DNA of 43,571 bases from an uncultured Synergistales bacterium. Its GTDB lineage: Bacteria > Synergistota > Synergistia > Synergistales > Aminobacteriaceae. Under the pieces are notes generated by a model. It was not told the origin of the DNA, ran no database searches, and saw nothing but the letters and a program-made list of their open reading frames with translations. Positions within the stretch are counted from its first letter, which is position 1. Every line of letters starts with the position of its first letter. The stretch is from positions 1 to 43,571 of the forward strand of contig CAJOLN010000002.1 in the NCBI GenBank assembly GCA_905235395.1, read 5' to 3'. Of this stretch, positions 36,559 through 37,918 are shown piece by piece. Both the position numbers and the translations under genes were made by a program.

Positions 36559-36614
36559 ATTCATTCATGAATTGCGGACTTCGAAGAAGAAAAATCTTTG
36601 AGGTCTGCATATTC

Positions 36615-36642
36615 AAATTCATAAAGGAAAATTCATAAAGGA
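36615..36642 (+). repeat. Perfect 14-bp tandem duplication AAATTCATAAAGGA x2 carrying the Shine-Dalgarno
   Basis: Read directly; the second copy supplies AAAGGAG upstream of ATG 36652. Confidence 0.9.
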
Positions 36643-36651
36643 GATTGACAA

Positions 36652-37882
36652 ATGCACGATAACAAAGCTATAATCGATCAACGACCAACGACCAACGACC
36701 AACGCTATTATTGCGTTCGTAAAGAAATGCATTAAGCGTATTATCAGGTTTACTGTTTGCACAATAATAGAATTTCTTTCCTTTTTTGTTCCTTCCCAAA
36801 AAATTATTCTGTACGAGAGCTATCCTGATTTCACAGACAACACTTATCCTCTGTACCTGAAATTGAAAGAGCTGATGCCTGACTATAAACATGTTTGGTT
36901 CATTCATCATGGAATGATTCACAAAGAAGCAGATGATGTGATATATTCTGAAAGAAAAACTCTGCGTGAAAAGCTGAAGTACTTGTACTATATGTCGAGA
37001 TGCAGAGCATTAGTTCAGTGTAACGTCACTCGTAGAAAATTCAAACGTTCTCAGCTTTCATTATATCTTTCTCACGGAAGCCCAATCAAGGCTGCTCATG
37101 CCGCAAGTCTCAAAGGCTCTCGTATTGATTATGCGTGCATTCAATCACACTCATTTGATGATATGCTCGTCAAATATCTCAATGGCAGAAAAGAACAGTT
37201 CATCTATACCGGTTTTCCACGATGCGATTATTTTTATGCTGAATCGAAACCAGAAGCGATAAACGAAATTGTGAACGGGAAATATATCATCTGGCTACCG
37301 ACATTCAGAATTCATAGATGCAAGACCAGAGATGATGCTCCCGGCTCAGTATTCAATCATATCGGTGTTCCGTTGTTCTATGACATTCAGAACCTGAGAG
37401 ATTTCAATTCATTCCTGATAGACATGAACATTCACATACTCTATAAGCCACATTTTGCGCAGGATATGGACATAGTGAAGCGTGAAACCCTCTCGAACTT
37501 TCACATGATTCATGACCCTGATATTCTTGGTCGTAACCTTCAACTCTATGAAGTCATTGCACATTCAGAGGCACTCATCACAGATTATTCTTCTGTATTC
37601 TGGGATTATTTACTCCTAGACAGACCGATAGCACTCACAATTGATGATGTTGAAAGCTACAGAAAGGGATTAGGCTTTGCTGTCGATTTCGATGCAATAT
37701 CATCAGAGGCTTCAGAGAGATTAAGTGATTCAAAAGAGCTTCGTGAATTCGTCCTGAATGTGATTCATCATAGGGACATAATGTGTGAAGGCAGACGGAA
37801 ATGGAGAGATATAGGGAACATGCATCAAGATGGTAAGAGTGCAGAACGTACAGCAGAATTCATAAAGTCTATGCTAAAATGA
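36652..37882 (+). pseudogene. CDP-glycerol glycerophosphotransferase-like gene, out of frame at a heptamer repeat (phase-OFF candidate); intact main ORF 36863..37882, same frame open from 36674
   Basis: KIILYESYPDFTDNTYPLYLKLKELMPDYKHVWFIHHG...YTGFPRCDYF...ILYKPHF...ALITDYSSVFWDYLLLDRPI. Best RBS/ATG (36652) is frame 1; the body is frame 2; shift lies in (CAACGAC)3.7. Confidence 0.8.
36682..36707 (+). repeat. Heptanucleotide tandem repeat (CAACGAC)3.7
   Basis: Read directly: CAACGAC CAACGAC CAACGAC CAACG, 10 codons after the likely start. Confidence 0.9.
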
Positions 37883-37918
37883 TTCATCTTTTAACTTTCA
37901 GGAGATGATTCCCTTTTC

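Follow-up and report, generated by a model that had tools for sequence, protein, structure and literature searches.

Organization of the locus

The locus studied here raises the question of why a long, intact gene body should lie out of frame with the start codon that precedes it. It is situated on the forward strand of a 43,571-nt stretch of contig DNA, called the window below, from an uncultured Synergistales bacterium. A good Shine-Dalgarno sequence (AAAGGAG, 36637–36643) is followed by ATG 36652, from which the reading is MHDNKAIIDQRPTTNDQRYYCVRKEMH-stop; this ORF (36652–36735) would give a product of 27 residues and then stops. The enzyme body is open in frame 2 alone, from 36674 to 37882 (402 codons plus stop), and is directly preceded by TAA 36671–36673, so that any earlier start in that frame is blocked. 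The offset between the two frames sits at a perfect heptamer tract, (CAACGAC)3.7 (36679–36704; called by TRF as period 7, 4.3 copies, 36675–36704), and the loss of one unit or the gain of two would bring ATG 36652 and the body into one frame. The earlier note on this DNA had described the start signals with their early stop, the conserved body in frame 2 from 36674 and the frame arithmetic at the repeat, all of which we could reproduce. A tandem tract with a unit that is not a multiple of three lies between start codon and body, as in contingency loci and, judging from its frames, the copy as assembled is OFF.

The same note had conceded that a start in frame 2 beyond the repeat would overturn its reading. 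We looked for one, and the window sequence has no ATG, GTG or TTG in the body frame before TTG 36863, which is ca. 87 nt inside the Pfam match (starting at residue 35, ca. 36776). Translation might instead begin at a near-cognate codon past the tract, such as ATT 36707, making the tract irrelevant; ATT- or TTG-like codons do occur in the post-tract motif of many copies of the module described below. Nevertheless, the post-tract ATGs of copies heading GT8 genes are out of frame with the body, and a near-cognate start leaves unaccounted for the stop-free units and non-triplet periods reported below, besides the lack of a regular in-frame start. We consider its probability negligible.

TTGACA (36645–36650) and TATAAT (36669–36674), separated by an 18-nt spacer, form a promoter-like core with a 12/12 match to the consensus, whose predicted +1 falls at or within the tract. 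The Shine-Dalgarno region is doubled just upstream of the core by a 14-bp direct repeat, AAATTCATAAAGGA twice (36615–36642; TRF, 100%). Farther upstream, TGCATATTC (36606–36614) is a weak candidate −10, placed by analogy with the upstream promoter TGNTATAAT of other copies, which it matches poorly. After the tract there is a short motif, CTATTATTGCGT (36705–36716), that by eye resembles (C)TTAATTATTGYCC of other copies. RNA folding of this 5′ region was unremarkable (z −0.88).

The enzyme and its cassette

The body matches PF04464 over its full length (ca. 36776–37864; profile positions 5–365 of 367, E-value 2e-40, 139.3 bits against a cut-off of 22.1), which bears out the proposal of the earlier note that it resembles glycerophosphotransferases of the CDP-glycerol type. 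By family, its assignment as a CDP-glycerol:poly(glycerophosphate) glycerophosphotransferase-like enzyme is confirmed, and activity on CDP-glycerol is predicted; related enzymes use other CDP-polyols. Weak sequence matches in the PDB were to TagF and the TagF-like capsule polymerase Cps3D (3l7i, 8qoy), with which the product shares the same Pfam family, although it differs from them in its single-domain body of 402 codons, in the 5′ switch module and in its occurrence in Synergistota. The best relative in the genus, from genome G016, shows 55% identity over 391 aa and is also headed by the module; it carries 2.4 copies of another heptamer and is likewise out of frame from the module start. dS between the two genes is saturated. 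Another relative of the enzyme (L002:127-1710, contig G016:C104) has an extra C-terminal domain that by eye, from its NGVFDMFHAGHL motif, resembles a glycerol-3-phosphate cytidylyltransferase.

A search of genome contigs for related loci with the window protein gave no match. Using adenine deaminase as a query, we obtained syntenic relatives, by which this genome stands close to metagenome-assembled genomes of ruminant-gut Synergistaceae/Synergistales (goat, deer, reindeer). In two near relatives, L062 (ca. 91% nucleotide identity downstream) and L068, module and gene are missing exactly between the two flanking genes: in L062 position 3576 pairs with 36520 and 3615 with 37917, and in L068 position 3598 pairs with 36556 and 3619 with 37918. 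The cassette (ca. 36559–37916, ends approximate) was thus either inserted here or lost there.

A putative switch module at heptamer and pentamer repeats of the genome

At two further places of this genome the heptamer CAACGAC heads a glycosyltransferase gene, one of them GT8-like and out of frame, the other GT2 and in frame (MNDKVAIIDQRPTTNDQRPAPLLSVVVTSYNE). A census of perfect simple sequence repeats (SSRs) over 1.03 Mb, about half the genome, found 19 heptamer, 2 pentamer, 7 hexamer and 1 trimer tracts, the first two classes with thresholds of at least 18 nt and at least 3 copies; the same census on a shuffled 1.03 Mb found none. With 21 heptamer or pentamer tracts against zero, and with CAACGAC standing before two other glycosyltransferase genes, the tract in the window is not due to chance.

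All but one of these 21 tracts follow a single module, mostly before genes for surface polysaccharides. Its order is upstream −10, Shine-Dalgarno, TTGACA, start codon, TATAAT and tract, and it is present at 18 heptamers (two recognized by eye) and at both pentamers (by eye, then by mismatch count). Among the 18 pentamer and heptamer tracts of this genome with enough flanking sequence, TTGACA plus TATAAT with at most one mismatch lies just upstream in 16, compared with 2 of 4,000 random positions; the two exceptions are a TTGACA-15-TATAAT and the GAAATGA tract, which lacks the module. The latter (L183:14574-14594, three copies) is the sole heptamer without a module in the census, and its unit has a stop codon. 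No module was found at the hexamer tracts of the census, where the core has 5–6 mismatches. Conversely, a looser module pattern gave 7 distinct matches in the first 1.02 Mb, all of them running into heptamers. These results support the reading, made from sequence, that the window gene is one of ca. 20 putative switch copies in the scanned half of the genome of this rumen bacterium.

The heptamer units behind the module differ (GCCTATC, GCTTATT, GGTATCA, GCACATC and others). This bears on the idea that ribosomes shift frame at the repeat in a programmed manner and make full protein constitutively, for which it can be said that shifting by +1 within the tract would connect both frames of the window gene. 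Such a signal is hard to reconcile with many unit sequences and two unit lengths at the same place, and both the copy number and the shift needed vary by locus, some loci needing none; we regard programmed frameshifting as extremely unlikely.

Distribution of the module in the genus and order

Across the genus, in a comparison set of assembled genomes with one per species, CAACGNN tracts, with 3 to 14 copies of the unit, follow this one module; CAACGGG tracts lacking an obvious module proved, by eye, to have it on the other strand. Pentamer tracts behind the module also occur elsewhere in the genus. A pattern that ignores the tract (GGAG, TTGACA, 16–19 nt, TAWAAT) had ca. 160 matches in the genus, compared with 3 for its reversed form. 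The strict module (AAAGGAG-TTGACA-17/18-TATAAT) was present at 50 places, spread over 23 of 43 congeneric genomes, and had no match when reversed. The strict module had no match in 140 genomes from 58 other genera of Synergistales. Within the genus its distribution is patchy, and about half of the genomes lack a match, including the near-complete G009, G014 and G019. Genes headed by the module encode GT2, GT4 and GT8 glycosyltransferases, MBOAT and other acyltransferases, sugar transferases, LicD, cytidylyltransferase and Glyphos_transf (PF04464) proteins.

Tract length differs between related genes of different species or loci (61 nt in L103 and 25 nt in L184; 40 nt in L148 and 86 nt in L149). 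Two very similar module-headed regions of one genome (L146 and L147, on G005:C23 and G005:C68) are two units apart, with 5.4 and 7.4 copies. Contigs often end inside tracts (G031:C33, G061:C136, G062:C95, G021:C19, G004:C41, G024:C46, G026:C24 and G016:C43), and breaks fall on that side of the module where the tract lies: six matches on the minus strand and one on the plus strand are within 125 nt of a contig start; in L152 there is a scaffold N gap inside the tract (642–645). Breaks and gap are consistent with length polymorphism or with repeat collapse.

Two architectures

Module-headed loci fall into two architectures. The window gene belongs to architecture A, with the tract fused to the coding sequence itself. 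Loci of architecture B have the tract inside a leader ORF, and the next gene has its own start, mostly 40–140 nt away. Typically, one frame of a B leader stops just after the tract, another midway and the third at an ATGA or TAATG overlap with the next start, so that the upstream ORF ends at or overlaps the downstream start, as in translational coupling. With downstream starts picked by rule, one frame was open into the next start in 30 of 35 loci; dinucleotide-shuffled leaders gave 11.7 ± 2.2, and 0 of 500 shuffles reached 30.

Evidence for translation of the tract and for selection on the genes

Were the tract translated, its units should respect the reading frame, and they do so in two ways. 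Among 94 modules the tract period is 7 (67) or 5 (11), 16 having no tract by our rule, and no period is divisible by three. The 31 distinct units contain no stop codon in any frame of the coding strand, whereas 14 of the 31 have one on the opposite strand; when letters are permuted within units, 4.9 units with a stop are expected (P = 0.0024, a nominal level, as are the others given here, since modules are related by descent and their counts are not independent).

Start signals point the same way. An ATG, GTG or TTG is found in 93 of 93 TTGACA–TATAAT spacers, ca. 60 being expected after shuffling, and the distances between start codon and Shine-Dalgarno cluster at 8–10 and 15 nt. An exact TATAAT lies 24–48 nt upstream of TTGACA in 44 of the 93 modules, 35 times as TGNTATAAT, while the next windows upstream hold 5 and 0; it is therefore plausible that an mRNA includes the Shine-Dalgarno. 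Because this set of 93 was gathered with TTGACA/TANAAT and the Shine-Dalgarno as requirements, the frequency of these elements is judged solely on the tract-based census.

A different reading of the module is a transcriptional or 5′-UTR switch, in which the core is a working promoter with its +1 in the tract; a tract of varying length would then adjust transcription, mRNA stability or spacing instead of the frame. The core is indeed a near-perfect sigma70 consensus, the tract starts where +1 would fall, and the downstream genes of architecture B have their own Shine-Dalgarno and start. But transcripts from the core would lack a start codon for A genes such as that of the window, and a switch of this kind does not account for unit lengths that are never 3, 6 or 9, for units that are stop-free on one strand only, for leaders that hold one frame open to the next start, or for a separate upstream −10, exact in about half of the copies. 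We consider it improbable. On the stop-codon, period and coupling tests, two views of the heptamer, as an intergenic repeat element and as a promoter plus UTR-length switch, were dropped as sole explanations.

The scorable tract loci comprise 25 ON and 37 OFF in the assembled sequences (13 and 22 in architecture A, 12 and 15 in architecture B); the share ON, ca. 40%, is near the one third expected were frame irrelevant, so that alone it proves nothing. OFF gene bodies nevertheless stay intact, and a pair of GT8 homologues that are both OFF has a dN/dS of 0.26, indicating purifying selection. This speaks against the window copy being a decaying pseudogene or an assembly error with no link to switching. 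In favour of decay or error are an assembly fragmented into 183 contigs, contigs and scaffolds that often break at tracts, and near relatives without the gene; against either stand, besides the selection on OFF homologues of another family, the 402 open codons with a full-length Pfam match and the many intact genes headed by the module. We judge this reading very improbable.

A model for the switch

Very probably, the locus in the window belongs to a family of contingency loci that is spread through the genus and has a translational switch in common. The proposal of the earlier note, an OFF state of a contingency locus, stands with the comparative support of module, frames, units and selection, but it was too narrow, as it covered a single locus of a system that extends across the genus and overlooked both the second promoter core and the version with a leader ORF. 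From the anatomy, the frames, the conservation of the module, the coupling frame and the selection on gene bodies, we infer slippage itself, its effects on expression and a phenotype as follows. The upstream promoter would yield an mRNA with Shine-Dalgarno and start codon, and the ribosome would read through the heptamer or pentamer tract; slipped-strand mispairing would add or remove a unit and change the frame. In architecture A, one of three frames would continue into the fused enzyme. In architecture B, one frame alone would bring the ribosome to the overlap with the next start, and the next gene would then be translated by coupling. As the switched genes modify surface polysaccharides, a population would be a mosaic of cells with different surface structures.

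The translational model leaves unexplained the consensus core inside the translation-initiation region. Placed after the Shine-Dalgarno and before the tract, this near-perfect sigma70 core (TTGACA-17/18-TATAAT) encloses the start codon in its spacer. The core is conserved in spite of a variable spacer, and since the frame in which it is read changes from copy to copy, it does not encode a peptide signal. RNA initiated at the core would start within the tract and lack both Shine-Dalgarno and start codon, so that A genes could not be expressed from it. The core may serve B genes as a basal promoter, it may interfere with the upstream promoter, or it may promote slippage through open-complex melting or scrunching at the tract. 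In its strongest form, the last role would make the core a dedicated instability element, at which RNA polymerase, opening and scrunching DNA at the tract start, raises the slippage rate; we put this forward as an unlikely suggestion. If it is true, the module carries its own mutability control plus a translational switch.

Comparison with known systems and significance

Haemophilus influenzae has tetranucleotide contingency loci (lic, lgtC and mod) and, more rarely, coding pentamers (GACGA in hsdM, TCAGC in an LPS flippase gene; PMC2651432). As in those loci, an SSR with a unit not divisible by three lies in or near the 5′ end of surface-glycan or restriction genes and sets the frame ON or OFF. 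The loci described here differ in their 7- or 5-nt units of many sequences, in a single 5′ module that contains a promoter core and is common to all copies, in a second class that acts through a leader ORF, and in their host, a gut commensal of a different phylum. The heptanucleotide tracts of hmw1A and hmw2A in H. influenzae also stand upstream of surface genes, but they do so ca. 100 bp away and within the promoter region, from where they modulate expression (PMC2651432). The module tract follows the start codon and is frame-constrained; its periods, stop avoidance and open coupling frame are not those of a promoter or untranslated tract indifferent to frame.

Translational coupling at ATGA/TAATG and phase variation have been treated as separate causes of frame transitions (PMC3711429). 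The B leaders resemble coupled genes in that the stop of an upstream ORF overlaps the downstream start, but differ from plain coupling in that an SSR picks the coupling frame, which joins the two. In the open-access literature we found no paper on SSR-selected translational coupling and no description of SSR phase variation in Synergistota; the loci appear to form a large, previously undescribed phase-variation system in this phylum.

Many phase-variable surface genes per genome, as found here, are also known from the SSR phasomes of Campylobacter and Neisseria (PMC11868660). Here, unlike there, a single conserved module recurs as the switch in front of unrelated genes. Phase-variable genes of Campylobacter and Neisseria have their own leaders. 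With ca. 20 loci in half a genome, this would be a large SSR phasome, and we found none described for the phylum or for the ruminant gut. It would be built from one reusable module and not from repeats arising gene by gene. The conserved promoter core makes it possible to test whether the mutation rate of a repeat is set by transcription there. The leader-ORF version would join phase variation to translational coupling, so that the switch may act on any gene and leave its protein unaltered.
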